Shown here: positions 18,389 to 31,278 of the stretch, piece by piece | Layout: the number at the start of each line of letters is the position of its first letter | Position numbering within the stretch: the stretch's first letter is position 1 | Assembly: GCA_030525245.1 (NCBI GenBank) | Contig: JAUNFB010000004.1 | Location: 1-64,000 of the forward strand | Direction of reading: 5' to 3' | Source of the DNA: Erysipelotrichia bacterium | GTDB lineage: Bacteria > Bacillota_I > Bacilli_A > Erysipelotrichales > Erysipelotrichaceae | DNA: 64,000 nucleotides | Made by a program: the position numbers and the translations under genes | Notes under the pieces: model-generated | What the model was told of the DNA's origin: nothing | The model's input: the letters and a program-made list of their open reading frames with translations, nothing else | The model's database searches: none

Positions 18389-18475
18389 TTTGTATTTAAT
18401 ACTAAGGAATAACAAGAATATTTTAGCTTATAAAAGGGTTGAAATCAACATTGGGATTAAACGGAGGAATTGAAA

Positions 18476-19531
18476 ATGAGAAAAATTTCTATTATTGCCG
18501 ACGGACAATTTGCTGATAAACAAGAAGATAAAGATCTTGTTTTGAGCAGATTTTCCTTTGTGAAAGAGTTAGGTGCGGAAATCAATTTGGTTACCGATGA
18601 AAAATTTACGGTACTTCCGGAAGGATGTCCTTACAAATCGGCTAAACATCGTATTGAATTTGAAGGTCCGACAGTGTTTGACTATGATCCGGCTTTTTTG
18701 AAGAGTCTAGAAGGATCGGAAGCGATAATCGTACATTACAGTGCGGTAAATAAAAAAATGTTGGATGCGGTTAAGAATTTGAAATTTATCGGTGTATTAA
18801 GAAGTGGTGTGGAAAATGTGGAAATCGAAGCAGCAAATGCTCGAAATATTGCGGTTAGTTGTTCTCCGGGAAGAGTTTCCGAACCGGTAGCCGACTATAC
18901 TGTTACTTTAATATGTGCATTTAACAGAAATGTATCTCAACATGATATGGCTCACAAGGGAAAATGGGAGCAGGATAAATCGTTTGTTCCACCTTTAATG
19001 TCTGAACTGACAGTCGGTATTGTCGGGTTTGGTATTATCGGTAAAAAAGTAGCGAAAAGATTAGCCGGATTCGGTTGTCGTCTTATTGCTTACGATCCGT
19101 TTATGAATGAGGAAGCAGCTAAGCAATTAGGCGTAGAACCGGTAAGTTTGGAGGAATTAATGAAGCAATCGGATTGTGTGACAGTTCATGCCAGATATAC
19201 GGAAGAAACTGCCAATTTGATTAGCAGGCAGAATATTGCGTTAATGAAACCGTCAGCTTTTATTGTTAATACTGCAAGGTCAAGATTAATTGATGAAGAA
19301 GCACTTGTTGAGGCCTTGAAAAATCATAAAATTCGCGGAGCAGCATTGGATGTATATAACAGTGAACCGTTACCGGATGATTCGCCGTTCTTCCAAATGG
19401 ATAATGTTTTATTATCACCGCATATTGCCGGAACATCGGGTAATTGGACAAGAATGACTTGCGCAGCTATGGAGACTGAATTGAGAAATTATTTAGAAGG
19501 CAAAAAATTACAATATCAAGTAAATAAATAA
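18476..19531 (+). CDS. D-2-hydroxyacid dehydrogenase (phosphoglycerate dehydrogenase-like)
   Basis: This 351-residue NAD-dependent enzyme interconverts a D-2-hydroxyacid and its 2-oxoacid. The nucleotide fold carries GFGIIGKKVAKRL (about 186), and the catalytic triad is complete: Arg in NTARSRL, Glu in YNSEPLP and His in LSPHIAG. I start at ATG 18476 (MRKISIIADG), 8 nt after GGAGG; an in-frame TTG at 18470 is too close to that site. It is the first gene of block A and probably acts on an intermediate made from the PTS sugar, together with the aldolase that follows at 13 nt. Confidence 0.9.
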   Translation: MRKISIIADGQFADKQEDKDLVLSRFSFVKELGAEINLVTDEKFTVLPEGCPYKSAKHRIEFEGPTVFDYDPAFLKSLEGSEAIIVHYSAVNKKMLDAVKNLKFIGVLRSGVENVEIEAANARNIAVSCSPGRVSEPVADYTVTLICAFNRNVSQHDMAHKGKWEQDKSFVPPLMSELTVGIVGFGIIGKKVAKRLAGFGCRLIAYDPFMNEEAAKQLGVEPVSLEELMKQSDCVTVHARYTEETANLISRQNIALMKPSAFIVNTARSRLIDEEALVEALKNHKIRGAALDVYNSEPLPDDSPFFQMDNVLLSPHIAGTSGNWTRMTCAAMETELRNYLEGKKLQYQVNK

Positions 19532-19544
19532 ACGGAGGAATATT

Positions 19545-20417
19545 ATGTTAGTTGGAATGAAAGAAATACTGGTTAAAGCCAGAAAAGAAGGTTACGGAGT
19601 TATCGCTCCGACAATCAAAAGCATGGAAGAGATTAAAGTCTCTATCGATGCTGCCGAAAAGAAAAACTCAGCTGTGATTTTAAATTTCAATATCACTTAT
19701 GATTGGGTAAAGAGAGATGAAGATTTAGAGTTGGCAGCTTATATTGCTCGGGAAAGAGCAATTCGTTCGACGGTTCCTGTATGTGTGAATCTTGATCACG
19801 GCAAGGATTATGAATGTGTTATGCGAGCTATCAAATATGGATTCGGTTCGGTAATGATTGATGCCAGCTATAAAACATTTGAAGAAAATGTTGAAATTAC
19901 CAAGAAAGTTTGTGAAACAGCTCATGCAGCCGGCTTATCTGTAGAAGCGGAATTAGGTTGTGTCGGTATGGCTGATCCTTCATTCACTATTTTGGGTAAG
20001 TACACTCAAACTACGGAAACCGATCCTGATGTCGTTGTGGAATTTGTTAAGAGAACCAATGTGGACTTTTTAGCGATTTCTATCGGTAATGCTCATGGAC
20101 CGTATGCCAAAGATATCGTTCCGCATTTGAATTTCGAGTTATTACAAAAAATAGCAGCAGCTACGCCTATTCCGTTGGTTTTACACGGTGGTTCGGGAAC
20201 CGGTGATGAAAACATGGGAAAAGCTTGTACAATGGGTATTTGCAAGATTAATGTTGCTACCGATTTATCAAAAGAAGGCGTTAAAGTTGCTTTAGACGCT
20301 TTGAATAAGGATGAAAAACATGGTAGATTGGATTTCATTCAAAATTATAATACCGGTTTCCAAAACAAGATCGAATACTACATGGATGTATTCGGTTCAA
20401 CCGGTAAAGCTTTTTAA
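19545..20417 (+). CDS. Class II ketose-bisphosphate aldolase (GatY/KbaY/Fba type)
   Basis: This zinc-dependent aldolase of 290 residues cleaves a ketose 1,6- or 1,7-type bisphosphate, or a related phosphorylated keto sugar, to dihydroxyacetone phosphate and an aldehyde. The catalytic Asp84 and zinc-ligand His85 are in NLDHGKD; the other zinc ligands lie in IGNAHGPYA and VLHGGSG, which also form the phosphate site. It follows the dehydrogenase by 13 nt and precedes the PTS genes, consistent with breakdown of a sugar phosphate delivered by that PTS. No kinase gene is in the block. Confidence 0.92.
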   Translation: MLVGMKEILVKARKEGYGVIAPTIKSMEEIKVSIDAAEKKNSAVILNFNITYDWVKRDEDLELAAYIARERAIRSTVPVCVNLDHGKDYECVMRAIKYGFGSVMIDASYKTFEENVEITKKVCETAHAAGLSVEAELGCVGMADPSFTILGKYTQTTETDPDVVVEFVKRTNVDFLAISIGNAHGPYAKDIVPHLNFELLQKIAAATPIPLVLHGGSGTGDENMGKACTMGICKINVATDLSKEGVKVALDALNKDEKHGRLDFIQNYNTGFQNKIEYYMDVFGSTGKAF

Positions 20418-20431
20418 AACAAATGAAGTAA

Positions 20432-20990
20432 TGTGCATTTCACAATAAAGAAAAGGAGAAAATTATGTCATTTATATATGCTCGTGTTGACAGCCGTTTG
20501 GTTCACGGTCAGGTAGGAGCTAAATTGGTTCGGTATTTAAATATTTCCCGAATTGCTTTAGTTGATGATGCGGTAGCAAAAGATGAATTTATGAAGCAAA
20601 TTTATACTTTTTCCGCAAAAGCCTGCGGTGCAGTTGTAGAAATTTATTCAGTAGATGAGATTGCTGAAAGATACAAACAAGGCAAATTTGAAAATGCCCG
20701 TTATATGTTATTGTTTGGCAGTATCGATACGGCTTATCGTACTTTGATGGCAGGGGTTGACTATAAAGATTTAGCTATCGGTTCTATTAAATGCGATAGT
20801 CCGGATCAAAAACTGGCCTATAAATTGGTTTATATTTCATCGGATGATGCTCGAAAATTGAGAGAAATTTCTGCTAAAGAGGTTAATGCTTATTTTCAAT
20901 TGATGCCTGGCGAAGATAAACCTGTCAGTGTCGAAGAGGGTATAAAAACGGCCGGTTTTTAATTAACAAATATTTAATATGAAATGCACA
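20432..20990. repeat. 11-bp complementary elements flanking the IIB gene
   Basis: TGTGCATTTCA (20432-20442) just before the IIB ribosome site and its exact reverse complement TGAAATGCACA (20980-20990) just before the IIC ribosome site. In one transcript these could pair across IIB, or they could be copies of a DNA site in opposite orientations. Two copies of an AT-rich 11-mer could also be chance. Confidence 0.35.
20465..20962 (+). CDS. PTS mannose/fructose/sorbose family component IIB (block A)
   Basis: EIIB receives phosphate from IIA on His14 in DSRLVHGQVG and gives it to the sugar during transport through IIC/IID. The 165-residue length and fold elements match the Man/Sor family. It begins the gene order IIB-IIC-IID-IIA of this block. 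AAAGGAG precedes the ATG. Confidence 0.95.
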   Translation: MSFIYARVDSRLVHGQVGAKLVRYLNISRIALVDDAVAKDEFMKQIYTFSAKACGAVVEIYSVDEIAERYKQGKFENARYMLLFGSIDTAYRTLMAGVDYKDLAIGSIKCDSPDQKLAYKLVYISSDDARKLREISAKEVNAYFQLMPGEDKPVSVEEGIKTAGF

Positions 20991-21011
20991 AGTAAATAGA
21001 AGGAGAAAAAA

Positions 21012-21767
21012 ATGGATACTTCGTATATTATCAGAATTCTTATTGTAGCTATTCTTTACGGTATCGGTTCATCACACATCTTCCATACTTATCTTTGGGT
21101 ATGGTTGTACCATGGTTTAGTGGGTGGACTTGTGATCGGTATTGTAATGGGTGATCCGGCAAAGGGTGCTTTGATCGGGGCTCAATTAAACACTATCTTT
21201 TTAGGTATGGTTTTCTATGGCGGTGCATTGCCTGCCGACACGTTTATGGCAACTTGTATATCCGTACCGTTAGCTTGCACACTGGGACTGTCCTTAGACG
21301 AAACATTACTGGTTGCTGTTCCTTGTGCAACTTTAGGTGTATTGATTGTAACTTTTATCAGATCAATGAATACCGCTATTTGGATTCCGTATGTTGAAAA
21401 AGCGGTTCAAAACGGTGATGTGAAGAGAATTAAATTAGGTTCGGGTTTATATCCGTTCTTGGCAGCTGTGGCTTTAGCTTCACCGATCGTGTTTATCGCT
21501 TTATATTTCGGTCCGTCATTTATCGAAGTGGTTATCAATGCTTTGCCTGCATGGATTTCTAAATCATTGAATGCTTTAAGTTCGTTATTACCGGCATTAG
21601 GCTTTGCTATGTACATCAGAATAATCGGTACTACAAAGACTATTCCGTTCTTCATCTTAGGATTCTTTATGATGCAGTTCTTCAATTTATCGATTTTCGG
21701 TATTGCGATCTTCGGTTTTGCTTTAGCTTATCTGACAGTTTATATGAATAAGGATTTAATGGGTTAG
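21012..21767 (+). CDS. PTS mannose/fructose/sorbose family component IIC (block A)
   Basis: The 251-residue membrane protein has the Man-family EIIC pattern, with about seven to eight hydrophobic segments and the conserved GxxxGDxxxGxxIGAQL-like stretch (IVMGDPAKGALIGAQLN, about 49-65). Together with IID it forms the sugar channel. It lies 49 nt after IIB and 13 nt before IID. The substrate cannot be assigned from sequence alone. Confidence 0.94.
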   Translation: MDTSYIIRILIVAILYGIGSSHIFHTYLWVWLYHGLVGGLVIGIVMGDPAKGALIGAQLNTIFLGMVFYGGALPADTFMATCISVPLACTLGLSLDETLLVAVPCATLGVLIVTFIRSMNTAIWIPYVEKAVQNGDVKRIKLGSGLYPFLAAVALASPIVFIALYFGPSFIEVVINALPAWISKSLNALSSLLPALGFAMYIRIIGTTKTIPFFILGFFMMQFFNLSIFGIAIFGFALAYLTVYMNKDLMG

Positions 21768-21780
21768 GAGGAAGATAAAA

Positions 21781-22611
21781 ATGGAAAATAATAATAAAGA
21801 ATACAGAGCTTTACCTAAAAAACTGATCTATAAATCATTATTTCGTCAACATGTTTTAAATCAATTATCTTTCGGATATGACAGAGGTTATGTTAATTCC
21901 TGGACGTCGGGTGCATTACCTTGTTTACAATATTTATATCAGGATGATCCTGAAGGATTTAAAGCGGCATTGGAAAGAACTCGTGATTATTGGTTATGTG
22001 AACAAACTTTTGCCTCTTTGGCTTTCGGTATCTATTTGTCAATGGAAGAGCAATATGCTAATGGTGCCGATTTTGACCCTCAATTAATTCGTGAAATTAA
22101 ATCGTCTATTATGGGCCCGTTGTCGGGAATGGGTGATTCATTACTCGGTTCAACTGTTCGTCAATTGGTAATGATTTTCTTCCTCGGTTATGCGATGGAA
22201 GGTGTAACTTGGGCAGGTTTAGGATTTGTTGTAGTTTACAGTTTGCTTATCAATACACCGCTGATTATCTTATTCTGTAAAACAGGTTATAAATACGGCA
22301 AACAGGCTGTCGCAAAGTTATTGGGTACACCATGGCTAGAAGTTATAAGAGGTGCTTGCACTATGGCTTCTATGATTATAATGGGTGGTATGGCTGCAAA
22401 ATACACTACTTTTAAGTTGAATTACTCTTGGAGTGTCGGAGAAGCAACTTATTTCTTACAAGATAAAATTGATTCAGCAATTCCTGGCTTATTGGCATTG
22501 TTGGCTGTGTTTGTTTACTATCACTTTGTCGGTAAAAAAGTTAATTTCGTTTGGTTGATTTTCGGAACATTTGCTTTCTGCATATTGTTAGTGCTTATCG
22601 GCCTGATTTAA
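21781..22611 (+). CDS. PTS mannose/fructose/sorbose family component IID (block A)
   Basis: The 276-residue protein has the long hydrophilic N-terminal half and the conserved MGPLSGMGDSLLGSTVRQL motif (about 114-132) of EIID, then several hydrophobic helices. It completes the membrane part of the transporter. It has AGGAGG upstream and is followed by an intra-operon hairpin before the IIA gene. Confidence 0.94.
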   Translation: MENNNKEYRALPKKLIYKSLFRQHVLNQLSFGYDRGYVNSWTSGALPCLQYLYQDDPEGFKAALERTRDYWLCEQTFASLAFGIYLSMEEQYANGADFDPQLIREIKSSIMGPLSGMGDSLLGSTVRQLVMIFFLGYAMEGVTWAGLGFVVVYSLLINTPLIILFCKTGYKYGKQAVAKLLGTPWLEVIRGACTMASMIIMGGMAAKYTTFKLNYSWSVGEATYFLQDKIDSAIPGLLALLAVFVYYHFVGKKVNFVWLIFGTFAFCILLVLIGLI

Positions 22612-22620
22612 TTAATTGAA

Positions 22621-22660
22621 AATATGTTTCCGAGTACAATTATGTATTCGGAAACATATT
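22621..22660 (+). terminator. Strong hairpin between IID and IIA (attenuator or RNA-stability element)
   Basis: A 13-bp stem AATATGTTTCCGA / TCGGAAACATATT with about a 12-nt loop and only a short, broken T-tract. It may partially terminate, or protect the upstream IIB-IIC-IID message. Confidence 0.6.
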
Positions 22661-22681
22661 TAATGGGAGGAGCGTGTTTAT

Positions 22682-23089
22682 ATGAGCGTAAACATAATTG
22701 TGGCTTCTCACGGAAGATTCTGTGAGGAAATAATTAAAAGTGCGGAAATGATCGTGGGGAAAAATGAGCGGTTATTTTCCTTACCTTTATTAAAAGAAGA
22801 AGATCCAATGGATTATCGCCAGAAATTGGAACAGATTGTTAAGTCTTTTGGTAATAATCCATTTATTATTATCTGCGATATCATCGGTGGAACACCATAT
22901 AATTGTGCATTGCAAATGCTTCAAAAATACAATTGTGCGGTATTGACCGGATTATCATTACCGATGTTATTGGAAGCATATTATTTAGATAGTGATTCGG
23001 TTGACGAAACGGGAGAGATTTTGCTTAATTGTGCACAAAGTACATTGCAAGTTTTTACCAAGGAACTGATGAATAATATTTTGAAATAA
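22682..23089 (+). CDS. PTS mannose-family component IIA (block A)
   Basis: EIIA accepts phosphate from HPr on His10 in IVASHGRFCEE and passes it to the IIB encoded upstream. The 135-residue single domain matches free-standing Man-type IIA. Its position after IID, with its own strong ribosome site (GGGAGGAG) and a hairpin in front, suggests separate tuning of its level. The next gene, a ferredoxin-like protein, follows after 23 nt. Confidence 0.93.
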   Translation: MSVNIIVASHGRFCEEIIKSAEMIVGKNERLFSLPLLKEEDPMDYRQKLEQIVKSFGNNPFIIICDIIGGTPYNCALQMLQKYNCAVLTGLSLPMLLEAYYLDSDSVDETGEILLNCAQSTLQVFTKELMNNILK

Positions 23090-23112
23090 TTAAATCGGAG
23101 GACATTAATTGT

Positions 23113-23844
23113 ATGAAAATAAATCAAGAAAAATGTGTTGGATGTGGGCAATGCGCTGTTTATTGTCCGATGTCTGCAATTGAAGTTGTAAATCGTAAAG
23201 CAATTTTGAATGAGAAAAAGTGTGTGAATTGTTACAACTGCATTCGTAATGGATGCCCGGTAAAAGCGTTGGAAGTAACCGAATTACAATGGCCTTATAC
23301 TTTGCAGGAGTCATTAAGTTGTCCGACAGGAGTAGACGAGAAGTCCGGTGTTTCCGGTCGCGGAACTGCTGAAATGAAAACAAATGAGGTTACGGGAAGA
23401 ATCGGACACGGAAAAGTAGGTATTTGTTTGGAATTCGGCAGACCGGGTACGGGAACAACTTTCTATGATGTAGAAAAAGCATGTAAATGTTTAGGTAAAC
23501 ATCATGCATATTTTGAACCGTTAAATCCTGTTACATATGTTATGAGCAATACGGAAACAGGCGAAATCCAGGAAGATGTTAAGCCATTGTTTGTTCTGTC
23601 CGCTATAGTAGAGGCTTTGATTGATGCCGATCAATTGGAGGCAGTTTTGGAAGATGTGAAAATGCTGGCAAAGGAAGTTGATACGGTATTTTCTGTTGGA
23701 GTTTCTTCTTTAGTGAAAGAAGACGGAAGTACTTATTTTGATGAAACAATTGAGAAAATGGGGTTATCTGTATATCCGGAGGGAAAAACCAATGTTGGTT
23801 TAGGTAGACCTTTGTTTGATTTTAGTAAGGGGGAGCAAAGATGA
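23113..23844 (+). CDS. 4Fe-4S ferredoxin-domain protein of unknown function
   Basis: Residues 1 to about 55 are a two-cluster ferredoxin domain: C8, C11, C14, C18 and C37, C40, C43, C48 (the second motif has four residues before the last Cys instead of three). The remaining 190 residues contain a Gly/Arg-rich region (GRIGHGKVGICLEFGRPGTG, about 94-113) and a helical, acidic part, and I cannot place them in a named family. The stop overlaps the next gene by 4 nt, so the two products are probably made in step. Expected role: electron transfer to or from a partner in block A, perhaps the next protein. Confidence 0.7.
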   Translation: MKINQEKCVGCGQCAVYCPMSAIEVVNRKAILNEKKCVNCYNCIRNGCPVKALEVTELQWPYTLQESLSCPTGVDEKSGVSGRGTAEMKTNEVTGRIGHGKVGICLEFGRPGTGTTFYDVEKACKCLGKHHAYFEPLNPVTYVMSNTETGEIQEDVKPLFVLSAIVEALIDADQLEAVLEDVKMLAKEVDTVFSVGVSSLVKEDGSTYFDETIEKMGLSVYPEGKTNVGLGRPLFDFSKGEQR

Positions 23845-24458
23845 CACACACATTGCACAGAACGGGATCGGTTAATGATTTAAAGAAAGACTATATTATA
23901 TTAGCTATGCCGGTTAAAGGAGTTAATAAAGAAGGATCTAAGCAAAAATTAATTGATATATTGGATATCGGAATGAAAAACGGTGCTATCAATGCCGGTG
24001 ACACCCAATCGGGTAACATTTATTCTGTCGGCATCGATGGTTTAAAAGAAAGAATGAAAGATGGTGCTGTTTTGAATTTGACATTTGACAGTCAAGAGAA
24101 TGTTATTAAAACTCTTAAAGAAATCAAAGATTTGCAAAACGGTATGTCGGTAGTGGTAACCGGTTTGTTGGAATATACGAAGGAATGTTGTAAGCAGGCT
24201 GGTTTAAAAAGACATACCATCGCTCGTTCTTTGGGCGTATGGGGGAAAACAGAGTTGTTGCCTAAGCCGGAAGAAATGGAAATAATGACAATGTGCGGTC
24301 ATGGATTGATAACTGCCGACTTGATTTATAAAACCGCCGAAAAAGTTCGTAAAGGACAACTTACTTTGCAGCAAGCAGGAATAGAAATTGCTAAACCATG
24401 CGTTTGCGGGGCTTGTAATGTTACAAGAGCAGCCGAATTGATAGAAAAATTCTTATAA
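23841..24458 (+). CDS. Unrecognised cysteine-containing protein coupled to the ferredoxin-like protein
   Basis: I do not recognise this 205-residue family. It is soluble, with an N-terminal alpha/beta region (DYIILAMPVKGVN) and a glycine-rich middle. The C-terminal third carries MCGHGLI (about 152-158) and CVCGACN (about 188-194), with a CC pair near 121, all plausible cluster or metal ligands. It overlaps the ferredoxin gene (ATG within the last codons) and is followed 1 nt later by the amidohydrolase, so it sits between redox and ring-opening steps. A redox or cofactor-binding enzyme subunit is a guess from context only. Confidence 0.6.
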   Translation: MTHTLHRTGSVNDLKKDYIILAMPVKGVNKEGSKQKLIDILDIGMKNGAINAGDTQSGNIYSVGIDGLKERMKDGAVLNLTFDSQENVIKTLKEIKDLQNGMSVVVTGLLEYTKECCKQAGLKRHTIARSLGVWGKTELLPKPEEMEIMTMCGHGLITADLIYKTAEKVRKGQLTLQQAGIEIAKPCVCGACNVTRAAELIEKFL

Positions 24459-24459
24459 A

Positions 24460-25770
24460 ATGAAAACAATATTGAAGAATGGAAGAGTAATTGATCCGGC
24501 TAATAATGTAGATGATTATTTAGATGTATTGGTAGTAAATGAAAAGATTGCCAAAATCGAAAAAAATATCAGTGATGAAGATGCGATTATTGAAGATTGT
24601 TCAGGCAAACTGGTGACACCGGGTTTTGTTGAGATGCATGCTCATATGAGAGATTTCAACGAACCGGAAAGGGAAACTTTTTATACCGGAAGTTGCAGCG
24701 CACTATGCGGTGGTTATACGACTGTAGGAGTAATGCCTAACAGTAATCCGGTAATCGATACCGTCGAAATGGTGGAAAAATTTAAACAAAGAGCTAAAGA
24801 AAGTTCGGTTGTACGTTTATATCCTTTTGCTTCGGTTACGATGGGAAGAGCCGGCAAAGAAATAGTTGATATGAAGGCTTTAAAGCAAGCCGGAGTAGTA
24901 GCATTTTCTGATGACGGCAATGCAGTTAAGGAAGCAACCATGATGCGAGATATTTTAAAAGCGACTAAGGAAGTTGACTTGGTTGTTGATTTGCATTGTG
25001 AAGATAAGGCTTATACCGGTAAGGGAGTAGTAAATGCCGGCAAGTTGTCAGAAGAAATGGGGCTTCCGGGTATATCTTCCGTTGCCGAAGATATTGAGAT
25101 TGCTCGTGATTTAATTATTCAGGAAGAAATTCAAGGTCATATTCATATTGCTCATTTGGGTTCGGAGAGATCAATTAAATTAGTGGAATTCTTCCGTAAC
25201 AGGAATGTTGATTTTACTTGTGAAGTAATACCGCATCAGTTTTCTCGTACCGAGGAAATTGTTAAGAGAAAAGGTGTATTGGCGAAGGTCAAACCGCCAT
25301 TTAGAGATGAACACGATATGTTAGGCATCAGAGAAGGCATAAGAAAGCATTTGATAGATGTTATTGCGACTGATCATTGCCCGTATGCGGAAAGTGAATT
25401 ACAAGGTGGCTTGACGGCGACTAATCTGTTTGGATTAGCCGGTTTTGAGACTACCTTACCGTTAGCGTTGGATTTGGTAAGAGAGGGTTATGCCGATTAT
25501 TCATATATTATTGCCTGTTTAACCTGCAATCCGGCAAGGATAATGCGCCTTAATGATCGCGGAACATTATCGATAGGTAAAGATGCGGATATCACGGTAA
25601 TTGATCCGCATATCGAATGGACGGTTGATTTAAACAGATTTAAGAGTAAAGGAAAGAACAATCCTTATGAAGGAGAGAAGATGCGAGGTAAAGCCGTTAT
25701 GACAATGATTAATGGGAAAATTGTTTGTCGTGATTGGCAAATATTAAAACAGGTTGAAAAACCGTTTTAG
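24460..25770 (+). CDS. Dihydroorotase-like cyclic amidohydrolase
   Basis: The 436-residue protein belongs to the type I dihydroorotase/allantoinase/hydantoinase group of the amidohydrolase superfamily, which opens cyclic ureides hydrolytically. Visible metal-site elements are H60 and H62 with R64 (EMHAHMRD), the bridging-Asp region FSDDGNAV, IHIAHLGS, CEVIPHQF and the catalytic-Asp loop, here ATDHCPY instead of the DHAPH usual in PyrC. No other pyrimidine-synthesis gene is nearby. In block A, followed by FdrA/YlbE homologues, it more likely makes an N-carbamoyl acid for catabolism than serves biosynthesis. True PyrC remains possible. Confidence 0.8.
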   Translation: MKTILKNGRVIDPANNVDDYLDVLVVNEKIAKIEKNISDEDAIIEDCSGKLVTPGFVEMHAHMRDFNEPERETFYTGSCSALCGGYTTVGVMPNSNPVIDTVEMVEKFKQRAKESSVVRLYPFASVTMGRAGKEIVDMKALKQAGVVAFSDDGNAVKEATMMRDILKATKEVDLVVDLHCEDKAYTGKGVVNAGKLSEEMGLPGISSVAEDIEIARDLIIQEEIQGHIHIAHLGSERSIKLVEFFRNRNVDFTCEVIPHQFSRTEEIVKRKGVLAKVKPPFRDEHDMLGIREGIRKHLIDVIATDHCPYAESELQGGLTATNLFGLAGFETTLPLALDLVREGYADYSYIIACLTCNPARIMRLNDRGTLSIGKDADITVIDPHIEWTVDLNRFKSKGKNNPYEGEKMRGKAVMTMINGKIVCRDWQILKQVEKPF

Positions 25771-25791
25771 AGAAATGAGGATATTTTATTT

Positions 25792-27348
25792 ATGAGTTGT
25801 CTTGATACGATTATTTTAAGCAATACTTACCGTGATTCGGTGTTTTTAATGAAAATATCGGCAGAGGTTGCCAAAATTAACGGAGTTATTGAAGCTGCTG
25901 CGATGATGGCAACAGAGAGAAATAAAGATTTATTTGAGAAAAGTAATTTAAGCAATGAAAAAGTATGCAACGCTTTAAGCGATGATTTGGTTATTTCCGT
26001 CAGAGCAGAGAATGAAGAGGCATTACAAAAGGCTCTTTCAAAGGCAAATGAAATGTTAAGTTCAGTCAATAAAGCGGAAAAAACAGATAAAGACAATAAA
26101 ATCAAAACATTAGAGGCTGCTTTACAAGTGGATAAAGAGGCTAATGTTTTGTTGATTTCTTGTGCCGGTGATTATGCTAAGTATGAGGCGGTTAAGGGAT
26201 TAAATAACGGATTAAACATTATGCTTTATTCGGATAATATCAGTGTTGAAGATGAATTAGCTTTAAAACAATTGGCACATCAAAAACAATTGATTGTGAT
26301 GGGGCCGGATTGTGGCAGTTCTATTATTAATGGTGTACCTTTGGCTTTTGCTAATAGGGTCGGAAAAGGTCCGATCGGAGTTGTCGGAGCATCCGGTACC
26401 GGAATTCAAGAAGTAACAAGTCTTTTAGATCGATATGGATGCGGCATAACTCAGGCATTCGGAACCGGAGGACGAGATCCTAAAGAAGAAATCAACGGAA
26501 TTACAATGATGGATTGTTTGGAGATTATTAAAAATGATCCCAACAGCAAGGTTATATTGATTGTATCTAAGCCGCCGTGTAAATCTGTTTTGAAAAAAAT
26601 AATCGAATTTATCAAGTCTACCGAAAAACCGGTTGTGGTTAATTTTGCGGGAGAAGATGATTACAGTGAGATTGTTCAAGCAGGCGGTTATTATGGTAAA
26701 TCATTGGAAGAAACAGCTATGGAAGCTTATCGCTTAGCAACCGGTAAAGAAGTAGAATATGAATTGTTTTCCGGTATAGATTTTAACAAGTTAAATAAAG
26801 AAATAGCTAATTTGTTGCCGTCACAAAAGTATTTACGCGCTATTTATTCCGGTGGGAGTTTGTGCTATGAAGCAATGGCTGAAATCAAAAAATATGTTTC
26901 ACCGATTTTATCTAATACGCCACTAAAAGGTGTAGAAAAATTGGAAGATGTTAAAAAATCACGATTAAATACTTTTTTGGACATCGGCGATGATGAATTT
27001 ACAGTCGGTAAACCTCATCCGATGATTGATCCGACGATCAAATGTAAGAGATTGGAAGCGGAGATTTCTGATGAAGAAGTAGCGATTGTCTTGACTGATT
27101 GTGTGATCGGTTACGGTTCTTGTGATGATCCTGCAAAAGCTATAGCCGAAGCAATTAATGAAAAATCAACGACGAAGGCAATTGTTGTGGCTTCCGTTTG
27201 CGGCACGCAAAAAGACTATCAAATATATTCAAAACAAGTTGAGATATTGCGTGATGCCGGTGTATATGTTGCTCAAAGCAATTATCAAGCAGCAAAGTTA
27301 TGTGAATATATATTTAATAAATTATCGGAGGCTAAAAATGAAGGCTAA
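25792..27348 (+). CDS. fdrA: FdrA family protein (carbamoyltransferase-type subunit)
   Basis: The 518-residue protein matches FdrA, with two CoA-ligase-like modules resembling succinyl-CoA synthetase alpha subunits (the VGASGTGIQEV and FGTGGRDPKEEI segments, about 198-228). E. coli FdrA, YlbE and YlbF are reported as the subunits AllF, AllG and AllH of oxamate carbamoyltransferase, which phosphorolyses oxalurate-type N-carbamoyl compounds to carbamoyl phosphate. The gene overlaps the DUF1116 gene by 11 nt. Assignment of this reaction here is by homology; the natural N-carbamoyl substrate may differ. Confidence 0.88.
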   Translation: MSCLDTIILSNTYRDSVFLMKISAEVAKINGVIEAAAMMATERNKDLFEKSNLSNEKVCNALSDDLVISVRAENEEALQKALSKANEMLSSVNKAEKTDKDNKIKTLEAALQVDKEANVLLISCAGDYAKYEAVKGLNNGLNIMLYSDNISVEDELALKQLAHQKQLIVMGPDCGSSIINGVPLAFANRVGKGPIGVVGASGTGIQEVTSLLDRYGCGITQAFGTGGRDPKEEINGITMMDCLEIIKNDPNSKVILIVSKPPCKSVLKKIIEFIKSTEKPVVVNFAGEDDYSEIVQAGGYYGKSLEETAMEAYRLATGKEVEYELFSGIDFNKLNKEIANLLPSQKYLRAIYSGGSLCYEAMAEIKKYVSPILSNTPLKGVEKLEDVKKSRLNTFLDIGDDEFTVGKPHPMIDPTIKCKRLEAEISDEEVAIVLTDCVIGYGSCDDPAKAIAEAINEKSTTKAIVVASVCGTQKDYQIYSKQVEILRDAGVYVAQSNYQAAKLCEYIFNKLSEAKNEG

Positions 27349-28762
27349 TGAGTTAATTAATAATGAAGTAAATGTTATTAATATTGGATTGAAATCTTTT
27401 ACGGAAGGAATAAAAAAAGAAAACGGAAAAGTTTTAGACACAGATTGGTTACCGCCGGCTTCCGGTGATACGAAAATGGTAGATTTATTATTCAAATGCG
27501 AATTGCATGCGGAAGAAATAAATAAGGCTAATGAGAAGGCTGTGAATATTATTATGTCCGGGCAGCCGGTTTTAAAAGGAATAAAGCAGGCAAAATATGT
27601 TGTACCCGGATTGAAAGAACGCTTAATTTTACATGCCGGACCTCCTGTCGAATATAAAGATATGTGTGGGCCGATGCAGGGTGCTGTTGTCGGAGCAATG
27701 ATTTATGAAGGATGGGCAAAAGATAAAGCCGATGCGGAGAAGCAAATAGCAAACGGTGAAATAGAATTTGATTGTAATCATCATCATTCGGCAGTTGGAC
27801 CGATGACTGGAATAATAACTTCTTCAATGCCTGTATTTGAAGTGGTTAATGAGACTTACGGTAATTATGCTTACTGCACAATCAACGAGGGTATCGGTGA
27901 GGTTATGCGTTTTGGAGCAAATGGTCCCAAAGTTATTAGTAAATTACATTGGTTAGAAGACGTTTTTGCTCCGGCATTGAATGAAGCAATTCAAAAAACA
28001 GGCGGAGTAAATTTAAAAAATATTATGGCACAGGCTTTGGCTATGGGTGATGAGATGCATCAAAGAAATGTTGCTGCCAGTCTGATATTTTATAAGACTA
28101 TTTGTTCTGAATTGACTGAAGTGATCGTTGATAATCCTCATGGAAAAGAAATTGTGGAGTTTTTGGTTAAGAAAAACGACCAATTCTTCTTGAATTTGGC
28201 TATGGCTGCTTCCAAATCAATTATGGATAAAGCTCGCAATATCCCGATGAGTACTGTAGTTACGGCTTTAAGCAGAAATGGAGTCGATTTTGGTTTGAAT
28301 GTCAGTTCCTTAGGGGATGAATGGTTTACTGCTCCGTGTTTAAAACCTGTAGGTTTATATTTCCCGGGATATAGTGAGGAAGATGCTAATCCGGATATGG
28401 GAGACAGTTCGATTACAGAGTGTATCGGTATAGGTGGTTGTGCTATGGGTTGTTCTCCGGCAGTTGTAAATTTTGTCGGTGCCGGTTCGGTAGCCAAAGC
28501 GATGGAATATACCGATTCCATGGCGGAAATTACAGTGGCACAGAATTATAATTTGCCGATGCCGAATATGAATTTTGTTGGTGTTCCTTGCGGCTTTGAT
28601 ATCCGCAAGATTGTCAGCAGCGGCATATTACCGGTTATTAATACCGGAATGGCACATAAAAAGGCCGGTATCGGTCAAGTCGGAGCAGGTATTGTAAACC
28701 CACCGATGGATATTTTTAAACAAGCTTTGAAGAAGTTTGTTGAAGAATATATTGATAAATAA
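27338..28762 (+). CDS. DUF1116 protein, YlbE/AllG-like
   Basis: The 474-residue protein is of the DUF1116 (YlbE) family, partner of FdrA. Conserved-looking stretches include HAGPPVEYKDMCGPMQGA, FDCNHHHSAVGPMTG and the C-terminal NTGMAHKKAGIGQVGAG. I start at ATG 27338 because GGAGG lies 7 nt upstream; the frame is open farther left but overlaps fdrA and has no ribosome site. In E. coli the homologue is a subunit of oxamate carbamoyltransferase. Here it is translationally coupled to fdrA, supporting a complex. Confidence 0.9.
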   Translation: MKANELINNEVNVINIGLKSFTEGIKKENGKVLDTDWLPPASGDTKMVDLLFKCELHAEEINKANEKAVNIIMSGQPVLKGIKQAKYVVPGLKERLILHAGPPVEYKDMCGPMQGAVVGAMIYEGWAKDKADAEKQIANGEIEFDCNHHHSAVGPMTGIITSSMPVFEVVNETYGNYAYCTINEGIGEVMRFGANGPKVISKLHWLEDVFAPALNEAIQKTGGVNLKNIMAQALAMGDEMHQRNVAASLIFYKTICSELTEVIVDNPHGKEIVEFLVKKNDQFFLNLAMAASKSIMDKARNIPMSTVVTALSRNGVDFGLNVSSLGDEWFTAPCLKPVGLYFPGYSEEDANPDMGDSSITECIGIGGCAMGCSPAVVNFVGAGSVAKAMEYTDSMAEITVAQNYNLPMPNMNFVGVPCGFDIRKIVSSGILPVINTGMAHKKAGIGQVGAGIVNPPMDIFKQALKKFVEEYIDK

Positions 28763-28764
28763 TT

Positions 28765-30354
28765 ATGCCGGATAGTTTAACTTTACTATTAAGTGCTTTT
28801 ATTCCAATAGCAATGCTGATTATAATGCTGATATTCTTGCACTATTCTGCAACTAAGGCAGCAATGATCAGCTTGTTATTGACAGTGTTATCGGCACTGT
28901 TTATGTTTAAAGCATCATTATCGACAGTCTTTATTGAAGCGGGAAAAGGTTTATGGAATGGCTTATCAATACTTATGGTTATTTTATCGGCTGTTTCCTT
29001 ATATGAGGTAACTGCCGAGGCTAAAATAACAGTAGCATTTAAACAGGGGATTAATAAAATCAGTTCCAATGAGTTGATTCAAATATTGCTTATTGGTTGC
29101 GTATTTACGAGTTATTTGCAGGGTATAACAGGTTTTGGTGTACCGATTGTTGTTGGTGCCCCACTCTTGCGAGGAATAGGGGTTAAGCCTGTTTATGCGG
29201 TAGTTATATCGATAATCGGTTATGCTTGGGCTAATACCTATGGTACGTTAGCGGCGGCTTGGGACAGTTTGGTTCAAACTGTCGGGATAAGTGTTAATTC
29301 GACAGAGTTTTATCAGCTGTCATATTGTTCAACTTTATTTTTAGTTGTAGTTAATCTTGCCGGGTGTTTGGTCATTTGTTGGTTATACGGAAGAACGAGA
29401 GCTTTGAAAAAGGGTTGGTTGGCAATCTTGGTAATGGTTTTGTCTCAATCAATCGGTCAAATTATATGTGGACAGTTTAATACGACTGTTGCGGCTTTTT
29501 TACCTACTACGTTTTCTCTTCTGACAATAACATTATTGAGTAGGATGAAGATGTATAATTCTTTATGGAGAATTGAAGACAGTAAGATAATGGATAGGAA
29601 AAACACAGAGGAAAAAGAAAATTGTTCGATGACTTTTATTGATTCACTGTTTCCGTATATTGTTCTAACGCTTATAACATTTGTTTGTTTGCTGATCAAA
29701 CCGGTAAATAATTTTTTATCGATTATTAAAATCAGTATTTCTTTTCCGGCAACATTGACCGGTTATGGATTTAAGAATGAAGCGATCAATAATTATTCTC
29801 CGATCAGTATTTTCACTCATCCTTCGGTTTTTCTGCTTTTATCAGCAATTATCAGTTATATCTATTATCGAAAAAAGCAATATATTGTTCGATGCGGATA
29901 TAAAACAATTATTAAGACAATTCTTCGAAAAGTATTGCCTTCGGTTATTACGGTATCTTCTTTGCTTATGATGTCTAAGATCATGTCCGGTACCGGACAA
30001 ACTACGGTTTTGGCTGAAACAACGGCTAAAATATTTAAGGAAAAATATCCGTATTTGACACCTTTTATCGGTTTGATCGGGGCCTTTATTACCGGTTCAA
30101 ATATGTCATCAAATATACTTTTTGGTAAATTTCAACAGATTACCGCGCAAATGTTAGGTTTGAACGAAGATATTATTTTAGCTGCTCAAACATCAGGTGC
30201 GGCAATTGGCGGAGTTACCAGTCCGAGTAATATAACATTAGCAACAACTACGGTTGGAATAGCCGGAAGTGAAGGTGAAGTCTTGAAAAAAACTACGCCC
30301 GTGGCTTTAATTGTCTCCTTGATAATAAGTATGTTAGCGAATGCTTTTGTATAA
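28765..30354 (+). CDS. L-lactate permease-family (LctP) transporter
   Basis: The 529-residue membrane protein has the LctP/GlcA family plan of about 12-14 helices with the QGITGFGVPIVVGAPLL motif (about 118-134) and a C-terminal QTSGAAIGGVTSPSNI segment. Characterised members carry 2-hydroxy-monocarboxylates such as lactate and glycolate. It starts 2 nt after the DUF1116 gene, inside the FdrA cluster. Oxamate is a structural analogue of pyruvate and lactate, so a carboxylate linked to the carbamoyltransferase reaction is an attractive, untested substrate. Confidence 0.88.
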   Translation: MPDSLTLLLSAFIPIAMLIIMLIFLHYSATKAAMISLLLTVLSALFMFKASLSTVFIEAGKGLWNGLSILMVILSAVSLYEVTAEAKITVAFKQGINKISSNELIQILLIGCVFTSYLQGITGFGVPIVVGAPLLRGIGVKPVYAVVISIIGYAWANTYGTLAAAWDSLVQTVGISVNSTEFYQLSYCSTLFLVVVNLAGCLVICWLYGRTRALKKGWLAILVMVLSQSIGQIICGQFNTTVAAFLPTTFSLLTITLLSRMKMYNSLWRIEDSKIMDRKNTEEKENCSMTFIDSLFPYIVLTLITFVCLLIKPVNNFLSIIKISISFPATLTGYGFKNEAINNYSPISIFTHPSVFLLLSAIISYIYYRKKQYIVRCGYKTIIKTILRKVLPSVITVSSLLMMSKIMSGTGQTTVLAETTAKIFKEKYPYLTPFIGLIGAFITGSNMSSNILFGKFQQITAQMLGLNEDIILAAQTSGAAIGGVTSPSNITLATTTVGIAGSEGEVLKKTTPVALIVSLIISMLANAFV

Positions 30355-30367
30355 TTTATAGTTTGTT

Positions 30368-30398
30368 GTCAATTGTTTTTGAAAACAATTGACTTTTA
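30368..30398 (+). terminator. Hairpin between the permease gene and the DUF2877 gene
   Basis: A 12-bp stem GTCAATTGTTTT / AAAACAATTGAC with a minimal loop and TTTT tail. It may end most transcripts before the last gene or act as an attenuator. Confidence 0.65.
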
Positions 30399-30411
30399 GG
30401 TAGGAGAAGTT

Positions 30412-31278
30412 ATGGTTAAATTGTGTAAGTTGTTATATCAAGAAATATTGAAGCAACAAGAAATAAGGGGAAAAGTTATCTCTTCTTTTTCCAATTCTTT
30501 TAATGTTTTAAGCAATGATAAAATAATTACTGTATTAAATTCAAGTGAAAAAATTCAACCCTTCAGTATAGCCGGTGAAAAAATTACTGTTATCCCTGTT
30601 GTCGATGATGAAATTACAATTAATGAGAGGGGAATATATCTTAGCGGTAGCTTAATCTGTTTGTTTGATGAATTGGTTATATATGATCCTTTTTTATGCT
30701 TGAATTATCGTTCAACCGTGAAGAAAATTGCGGATAATTTTTTAAAGCTGGAAAGATTATTGCTTAGTAATCGTGAAATTGAAGGAATCGCTACGGTTTT
30801 ATATCCGCATAATTATTCATTAACAAAGGGATATGAGTATATAGTTGACGAGATAAATGACTGGTTAAATTACTATCAATACGGTCAAAAGACGCAATTA
30901 AAAAAGAAATCCGTTGATATATGCGGATTTGGTTATGGTTTAACTCCAAGCTGTGATGATTTTTTAGCCGGCGTTATGTTATGTGATTTAATGAAGGATA
31001 TATATGAAAATAAAAATACAGCCAATAAAATCAAAGAGTACTCCGATTTTGTTCATTTGTGTAAAAACAAGACTAATAAGATAAGTTTAACTTTATTGGA
31101 AAATTCGGCACAAGGAATGTGCAACGAAGTTACCAAAAACTTACTACAAGCATTATTTTCTCAAGAAGATATATTAGAACAATATGCGAAGAAAATGTTG
31201 AAAATAGGACATTGTTCCGGAGCGGATATGTTATGTGGTATTTTAACGGCTTATAAATACGCTAAGCCGAAAGTTTAG
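30412..31278 (+). CDS. DUF2877 protein, YlbF/AllH-like
   Basis: The 288-residue protein shows the DUF2877 hallmark GFGYGLTPSCDDFLAGV (about 171-187) and a C-terminal HCSGADMLCGIL segment. The E. coli homologue YlbF (AllH) is the third subunit of the reported oxamate carbamoyltransferase. It is the last gene of block A and overlaps the convergent MATE gene by 17 nt. The carbamate kinase gene (ybcF/allK in E. coli) that would convert carbamoyl phosphate to ATP is absent from the window. Confidence 0.85.
   Translation: MVKLCKLLYQEILKQQEIRGKVISSFSNSFNVLSNDKIITVLNSSEKIQPFSIAGEKITVIPVVDDEITINERGIYLSGSLICLFDELVIYDPFLCLNYRSTVKKIADNFLKLERLLLSNREIEGIATVLYPHNYSLTKGYEYIVDEINDWLNYYQYGQKTQLKKKSVDICGFGYGLTPSCDDFLAGVMLCDLMKDIYENKNTANKIKEYSDFVHLCKNKTNKISLTLLENSAQGMCNEVTKNLLQALFSQEDILEQYAKKMLKIGHCSGADMLCGILTAYKYAKPKV

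Follow-up and report, generated by a model that had tools for sequence, protein, structure and literature searches.

P1-P2, a rare gene pair with ferredoxin motifs in a catabolic operon of an Erysipelotrichia bacterium

Results and Discussion

Gene content of the operon

The window analyzed here is a stretch of 64,000 nucleotides (contig JAUNFB010000004.1) from an Erysipelotrichia bacterium, whose genome is available as a 1.68 Mb draft (88.9% complete). We found a run of genes at 18470-31278, all on a single strand and separated by gaps of 70 nt or less, in the following order:

18470-19531, + strand: D-2-hydroxyacid dehydrogenase (Pfam)
19545-20417, + strand: class II aldolase (Pfam)
20465-23089, + strand: four mannose-type PTS subunits, in the order EIIB, EIIC, EIID, EIIA (EIIA by Pfam; the other three without a family call)
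23113-23844, + strand: P1, 243 aa, 2x[4Fe-4S] ferredoxin domain (putative) followed by an unnamed C-terminal domain
23841-24458, + strand: P2, 205 aa, member of an unnamed family
24460-25770, + strand: dihydroorotase (DHOase)-like cyclic amidohydrolase (TIGR00857, 371.6 bits against a cut-off of 279.05)
25792-27348, + strand: AllF/FdrA subunit of an OXTCase-type transcarbamylase (NF004760, 472 bits against 433)
27338-28762, + strand: AllG subunit (PF06545, E 1.8e-88; start assigned from the sequence to the ATG after GGAGG)
28765-30354, + strand: LctP-family carboxylate permease (PF02652, E 4e-75)
30412-31278, + strand: AllH subunit (PF11392, E 1.5e-23)

The ORFs of P1 and P2 overlapped by 4 nt and the DHOase-like gene started at 24460, 1 nt past the end of P2, so that the original prediction of an overlapping pair directly before a cyclic amidohydrolase was borne out. 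P2 was single-copy in this genome, and a DNA pattern containing two of its motifs occurred once in the window and in none of 100 shuffles. Compared with the copies in the uncultured Erysipelotrichaceae MAG iMGMC-791 (G532, locus L003), from a mouse-gut set, dN was 0.19 for P1 and 0.14 for P2, with dS above 2 in both cases; P1 and P2 are therefore real genes under strong purifying selection.

The DHOase-like protein was closely similar to Aquifex DHOase (E 1.2e-103) and belonged to the dihydroorotase family as judged by TIGR00857 and by its HxHxR, MPNxNP and ATDH signatures (HAHMRD, MPNSNP and ATDHCP in the window), and it scored below the cut-offs of all equivalog models among those listed. 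It also keeps the residues that bind the ring carboxylate in DHOases. AllF, AllG and AllH were encoded together, which constitutes an AllFGH system. Between LctP and AllH (30368-30393) lies a hairpin of 11 pairs with TTTT after it, possibly a partial terminator inside the operon. Three of the PTS proteins are presumably EIIB, EIIC and EIID, given their sequence and operon position.

The upstream genes (18470-23089) were spaced by 13-70 nt and their order was kept in L030, an operon of this MAG that repeats the window arrangement: dehydrogenase, aldolase, EIIB, EIIC, EIID, a 319-aa protein, EIIA, carbamate kinase, P1, P2, two small membrane-like proteins, DHOase-like protein, AllF, AllG, LctP and AllH. 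Identities to the window proteins were 76% (DHOase-like), 62% (AllF), 73% (AllG), 45% (LctP) and 29% (AllH). The two membrane-like proteins, located in the gap between P2 and the DHOase-like gene, and the 319-aa protein, located between EIID and EIIA (L030 10614-11697 and 14516-15475), were absent from the window; the 319-aa protein had no Pfam or NCBIfam family. The presence of carbamate kinase within the L003/L030 operon makes sense of AllFGH, since this enzyme would convert carbamoyl phosphate to ATP, and the operon probably yields carbamoyl phosphate. In the window genome, a carbamate-kinase-like piece was recognized by eye on another contig (L060 11498-11926).

P1, a ferredoxin fused to an unnamed domain

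P1 showed a Fer4 match (Pfam, E 2.5e-9; PF00037, 37 bits against a cut-off of 21.1), which placed its N-terminus among 2x[4Fe-4S] ferredoxins and upheld the prediction that the first protein is ferredoxin-like. It carries the motifs of a two-cluster ferredoxin (C8, C11, C14, C18 and C37, C40, C43, C48), and all eight of these cysteines were invariant in the six homologues. Overall, 8 of 12 cysteines of P1 were invariant compared with 60 of 243 residues (hypergeometric P 0.002, for six homologues that are not independent). Similar to bacterial 2x[4Fe-4S] ferredoxins, P1 has both CxxCxxC...C motifs and scores above the Pfam cut-off, but it differs from them in an added domain of ~185 residues that belongs to no family and in the presence of P2 as the next gene in all six genomes. 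Past residue 57, none of six members of the C-terminal domain had a match with a meaningful score in Pfam or NCBIfam.

Structure models of both P1 and P2 were built from two sequences only, and the P1 model (pLDDT 40) was too poor for detailed interpretation. The best structural match of P1 residues 99-230 was ACT-like (Z 8.5, rmsd 2.4, 88 aligned residues), a common fold matched by a weak model. This suggests a predicted ferredoxin-like/ACT-like fold at about residues 98-200. Separately, the profile of the C-terminal domain (23287-23841) matched a 56-residue stretch of glycerate kinase (PDB 2b8n, E 1.1e-4). The idea that the P1 C-terminal domain and P2 are duplicated halves was discarded, as their profile comparison was not significant (probability 1.4%).

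P2, a protein in no catalogued family

Three P2 motifs were found: C116-C117, MCGHGL (from M151) and CVCGACN (C187 to N193). P2 matched no Pfam family when six members were searched and had no meaningful NCBIfam match; profile searches of PDB gave chance-like matches only, and Foldseek gave nothing at E<=0.001. The earlier claim that P2 matches no known family therefore held in Pfam, NCBIfam and PDB, and neither family searches nor structure prediction yielded a confident match to a known enzyme family.

The cysteines, proposed to be cluster or metal ligands, fared unevenly. C117, C152, H154, C187 and C189 were invariant in all six homologues, whereas C116, the first Cys of the CC motif, and C192, the last Cys of CVCGAC, were Cys in only two of six (C192 is replaced by Phe elsewhere). 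Thus, the core was conserved and two of the six motif cysteines dropped out. In total, 4 of 6 cysteines were invariant compared with 44 of 205 residues (hypergeometric P 0.02, again for six homologues that are not independent).

The P2 model had pLDDT 65 and pTM 0.63, with the cysteine loops lying in stretches of pLDDT <50. The best match of residues 15-110 was MzrA (Z 7.6, rmsd 2.4, 74 aligned residues; a common fold and a weak model), followed by designed ferredoxin folds and PII-like proteins (Z about 7), suggesting that the N-terminal domain adopts a predicted ferredoxin-like (ACT/PII-type) fold. According to the search tool, Z values such as those obtained for P1 and P2 are common for models with no clear match, and the fold is a very common one. 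The models hence suggest, at low or moderate confidence, that both proteins have ferredoxin-like (ACT/PII-type) domains. In the model, the C-terminal part of P2 consisted of three helices; the MCGHG loop precedes the first of them and the CVCG loop precedes the third, an arrangement that suggested a Bfd-like site.

Bfd-type [2Fe-2S] domains have two ligand pairs, CxC ... CxxC, about 35 residues apart. The ligand pairs of P2 are similarly spaced in loops flanking predicted helices, but the motif is CxH-X32-CxC. We rejected a Bfd-type C-terminus for P2 as none of six members matched Fer2_BFD, the ligand pattern differed and the PDB profile search returned no Bfd chain. Neither P1 nor P2 contained a recognized flavin- or NAD-binding family, a flavin or Rossmann family, or any catalytic cofactor family in Pfam and NCBIfam.

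Distribution of the pair

The pair was detected in six distinct genomes (G000, which is the window genome, G532, G476, G484, G517 and G692), of which about four are independent, three of the six sequences being near-identical. G451 and G532 had the same L003 coordinates and were counted once. P1 and P2 were adjacent in all six genomes; the overlap was 4 nt in five, and a 3-nt gap was present in L003. Identity to the window copies was 82% for P2 and 76% for P1 in L003, 38 and 39% in L029, 38 and 38% in L027, 37 and 39% in L028, and 34 and 40% in L035.

P2 searches covered close relatives (1 of 98 genomes, the window genome itself), the phylum (2 of 392, itself and one spurious hit), the family (6 of 272, including one spurious hit) and, starting from an Arthrobacter genome, the phylum to which that genome belongs (1 of 246, G692). 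Searches around G692 found G692 only (1 of 149 and 1 of 396). L003 was retrieved by a cysteine pattern, and the other four homologues by profile with no cysteine requirement. The scan of genome contigs used a DNA pattern with CxCGxC and returned four loci, among which L003 was the sole relative; because the last Cys is not conserved, members with the other form of the motif must have escaped it. Loci L004, L005 and L006 from the same scan were not relatives; in L006 the second motif was out of frame, and the frame itself is presumably proline-racemase-like. Two profile hits were also judged spurious, one (G245, E 5.6e-4) covering 79 residues within a 602-aa frame and the other (G559, E 4.3e-4) lying inside a frame that appeared ABC-transporter-like by eye. 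No P2 relative was found in the viral contigs, plasmids and phages searched: the viral-contig hit L032 was an ordinary ferredoxin-like frame that stopped after 59 residues of the part read, and three further viral-contig loci were chance matches.

P1-P2 is therefore a rare, patchy, accessory pair among the genomes searched, a set that does not include Clostridia. Similar sequences presumably occur in thermophilic Firmicutes. No description of the pair was found in the titles and abstract openings of the literature searched.

Genomic context outside the window

When the window proteins were used as tblastn queries (E 0.01) against the four other loci (L027, L028, L029 and L035), neither DHOase nor any of AllF, AllG and AllH was detected in the stretch examined. 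In L027, L028 and L029 the pair had a divergent LysR-type gene on one side and a convergent Ldh_2-family dehydrogenase on the other. The dehydrogenase came closest to L-sulfolactate dehydrogenase and AllD without reaching the cut-off for either; these assignments came from Pfam for L029, NCBIfam for the L027 and L029 dehydrogenases, and similarity for the remainder. In L035, inspection by eye recognized neither LysR/Ldh_2 nor DHOase/AllFGH neighbors. We saw no target gene shared by all six loci.

The pair is thus not tied to the DHOase-like ring-opening enzyme. Its recurrence in four genomes without DHOase-like/AllFGH genes supports the notion of a new redox pair and weakens that of a ring-specific one. 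Accordingly, the original proposal was only partly sustained: a new redox pair is favored by its co-occurrence in 6 of 6 genomes, the absence of P2 from described families, its conserved core cysteines and the cluster motifs of P1, whereas a role on the ring before hydrolysis is disfavored by the four of six genomes with no DHOase-like/AllFGH genes nearby and by the lack of a flavin- or NAD-binding family in either protein. The simplest reading is that a general Fe-S redox module was recruited into the window operon.

Proposed function

The pair is real, conserved and undescribed in the libraries searched, and its probable role is electron transfer in the breakdown of small molecules. As P1 and P2 travel as a unit in 6 of 6 genomes, they probably work together. 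We tentatively propose, at somewhat less than an even chance, that each contributes one subunit to a previously undescribed Fe-S redox module that would act on small carboxylates. P2 and the P1 C-terminal domain have no family, yet they have stayed paired over deep divergence with the Cys/His core intact, which points to a small new Fe-S module. In this proposal, based in part on the predicted folds, the ferredoxin-like (ACT/PII-type) domains of P1 and P2 would pair side by side, a small anionic metabolite would bind at their interface, and the Cys-x-His ... Cys-x-Cys site of P2 would hold a third cluster or a metal. Low-potential electrons could pass from ferredoxin to P1 and via its two clusters to the P2 site, which would either donate electrons to a small carboxylate or accept them from it. 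In the window operon, the redox step would likely feed the DHOase-like/AllFGH route, in which ring opening would give an N-carbamoyl acid, phosphorolysis would give carbamoyl phosphate and carbamate kinase would give ATP. In other genomes the module would act on a different substrate, in three of them beside an Ldh_2-family hydroxyacid dehydrogenase. This anatomy would be equally compatible with sulfur transfer or sensing.

One alternative, possible but rather unlikely, is that P1-P2 is not an enzyme and acts instead as a regulator responsive to redox state and ligand, or as an electron-transfer adaptor: its ACT/PII-like domains would bind a metabolite, and its clusters would signal the redox state to a partner enzyme. 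The ACT/PII-like fold matches of both models, the differing metabolic neighbors, as expected for a general sensor, and the absence of a recognized catalytic family would all agree with it. However, the window pair sits amid catabolic enzymes, the six loci have no common target gene, and the strongly conserved Cys-x-His and Cys-x-Cys loops of P2 suggest a role in catalysis or cluster binding.

A sulfur-transfer or Fe-S assembly pair similar to methanogen MA1821/MA1822 is less probable. In that system, the partner of a protein with conserved cysteines is a ferredoxin with an attached ACT-like NIL domain, a plan shared by P1-P2 in that a ferredoxin carrying a ferredoxin-like domain adjoins a conserved-Cys partner. 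Against this, P1-P2 is without family match, with no sulfurtransferase or NIL Pfam match in six P2 members and six P1 C-terminal domains, and its neighbors are carbon and nitrogen catabolism genes. The domain order of the methanogen system is also reversed relative to P1.

Possible relation to orotate-type rings

A ring role may apply to the window-type operon only; we retain it there because G000 and G532 had no recognizable dihydroorotate dehydrogenase (DHODH) and P1-P2 were the only Fe-S proteins recognized in the operon. In G532 the sole DHO_dh-type match over the cut-off was a dihydrouridine synthase, and in G000 (88.9% complete) such a match covered 41 residues and was below the cut-off. 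PyrE was below the cut-off in G000, G532 and all four same-genus genomes tested. The other four P1-P2 genomes contained both a DHO_dh-family protein and PyrE. With neither DHODH nor PyrE over the cut-off in G000 and G532, the DHOase-like enzyme lies outside any recognizable complete UMP pathway.

We consider it distinctly unlikely that P1-P2 supplies the DHOase-like enzyme with its substrate by reducing an orotate-type ring, as a reductase that lacks flavin and draws its electrons from ferredoxin. The missing DHODH and PyrE assignments would fit, as would the position of the pair directly before an enzyme that keeps HxHxR and MPNxNP. On the other hand, four of six genomes have no DHOase-like gene nearby yet have an ordinary DHODH-family protein, the pair has no flavin or Rossmann family, the window genome is 89% complete, and no reduction would be needed if the substrate is itself a dihydro ring or hydantoin, as it may be. 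Neither protein matched PF01180, which places both outside the dihydroorotate dehydrogenase family. A DHODH gap-filling role was also weakened by G532 (97% complete), which has PyrB and PyrC but neither PyrD nor PyrE over the cut-off; in genus g31 the PyrD and PyrE genes lie near each other, so that one missing stretch could explain both absences. On contig C23 of G532 (L058 5626-12045), aspartate carbamoyltransferase and dihydroorotase genes were followed by carbamoyl phosphate synthetase genes (the last by eye).

The more specific scheme, in which the pair reduces an orotate-type acid, the DHOase-like enzyme opens the ring and AllFGH leads to carbamoyl phosphate, amounting to an energy-yielding orotate/ureide fermentation without DHODH, is more doubtful still. 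Finally, it is highly improbable that P2 is an epimerase or racemase that works without a cofactor through its MCGHG cysteine, in the manner of proline racemase: MCGHG is shared with the L006 protein, a chance find that is presumably proline-racemase-like, but there is no full-length similarity, none of six P2 members matched the proline racemase/hydroxyproline epimerase family at E up to 1 (Pfam, NCBIfam), a ferredoxin partner is present in 6 of 6 genomes and P2 has a further conserved Cys pair.

Comparison with known routes and AllFGH variants

For the favored redox module, the operon context gives a concrete set of candidate substrates, and its location in an operon with carbamoyl phosphate as the probable product hints at a ureide fermentation of gut Erysipelotrichaceae that has yet to be charted. 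As with the E. coli AllFGH oxamate carbamoyltransferase described in excerpts of PMC11326118, the window operon has AllF, AllG and AllH, and carbamate kinase is in the L003/L030 operon. The E. coli route, according to the same excerpts, uses allantoinase, allantoate and ureidoglycolate enzymes, whereas the window has a DHOase-like amidohydrolase, a PTS and P1-P2 instead. The logic of a reductase before a cyclic amidohydrolase is the same as in the reductive uric acid and pyrimidine pathways outlined in excerpts of PMC12507026, where a reductase feeds a cyclic amidohydrolase and an E. coli variant leads to phosphorolysis to carbamoyl phosphate. However, the reductases in those excerpts are flavin or XDH-type, and P1-P2 match neither.

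AllFGH relatives adjoined quite different hydrolases in other genomes. For example, in G124 (L014 3457-4575, 7334-8197 and 8222-12895), AllF, AllG and carbamate kinase, together with an AllH-like protein recognized by eye, shared one cluster with a biuret-hydrolase-like protein and a cyanuric acid amidohydrolase (NF052395, 540.8 bits against 360). An anaerobic cyanurate or biuret route to ATP via an AllFGH-type transcarbamylase is possible at this locus. L015 (G141) showed the same arrangement of AllF, AllG and carbamate kinase. In G008 (L016 4650-12572), AllF, AllG and a weak AllH match were located in a sugar-acid cluster with lactate racemase (LarA); an acetate/propionate-family kinase replaced carbamate kinase and no cyclic amidohydrolase was recognized by eye. 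The product of these AllFGH relatives may be another acyl phosphate. A further AllFGH variant was found in G408 (L013 7345-13482), with AllF, AllG and carbamate kinase beside an Amidohydro_3-type hydrolase.
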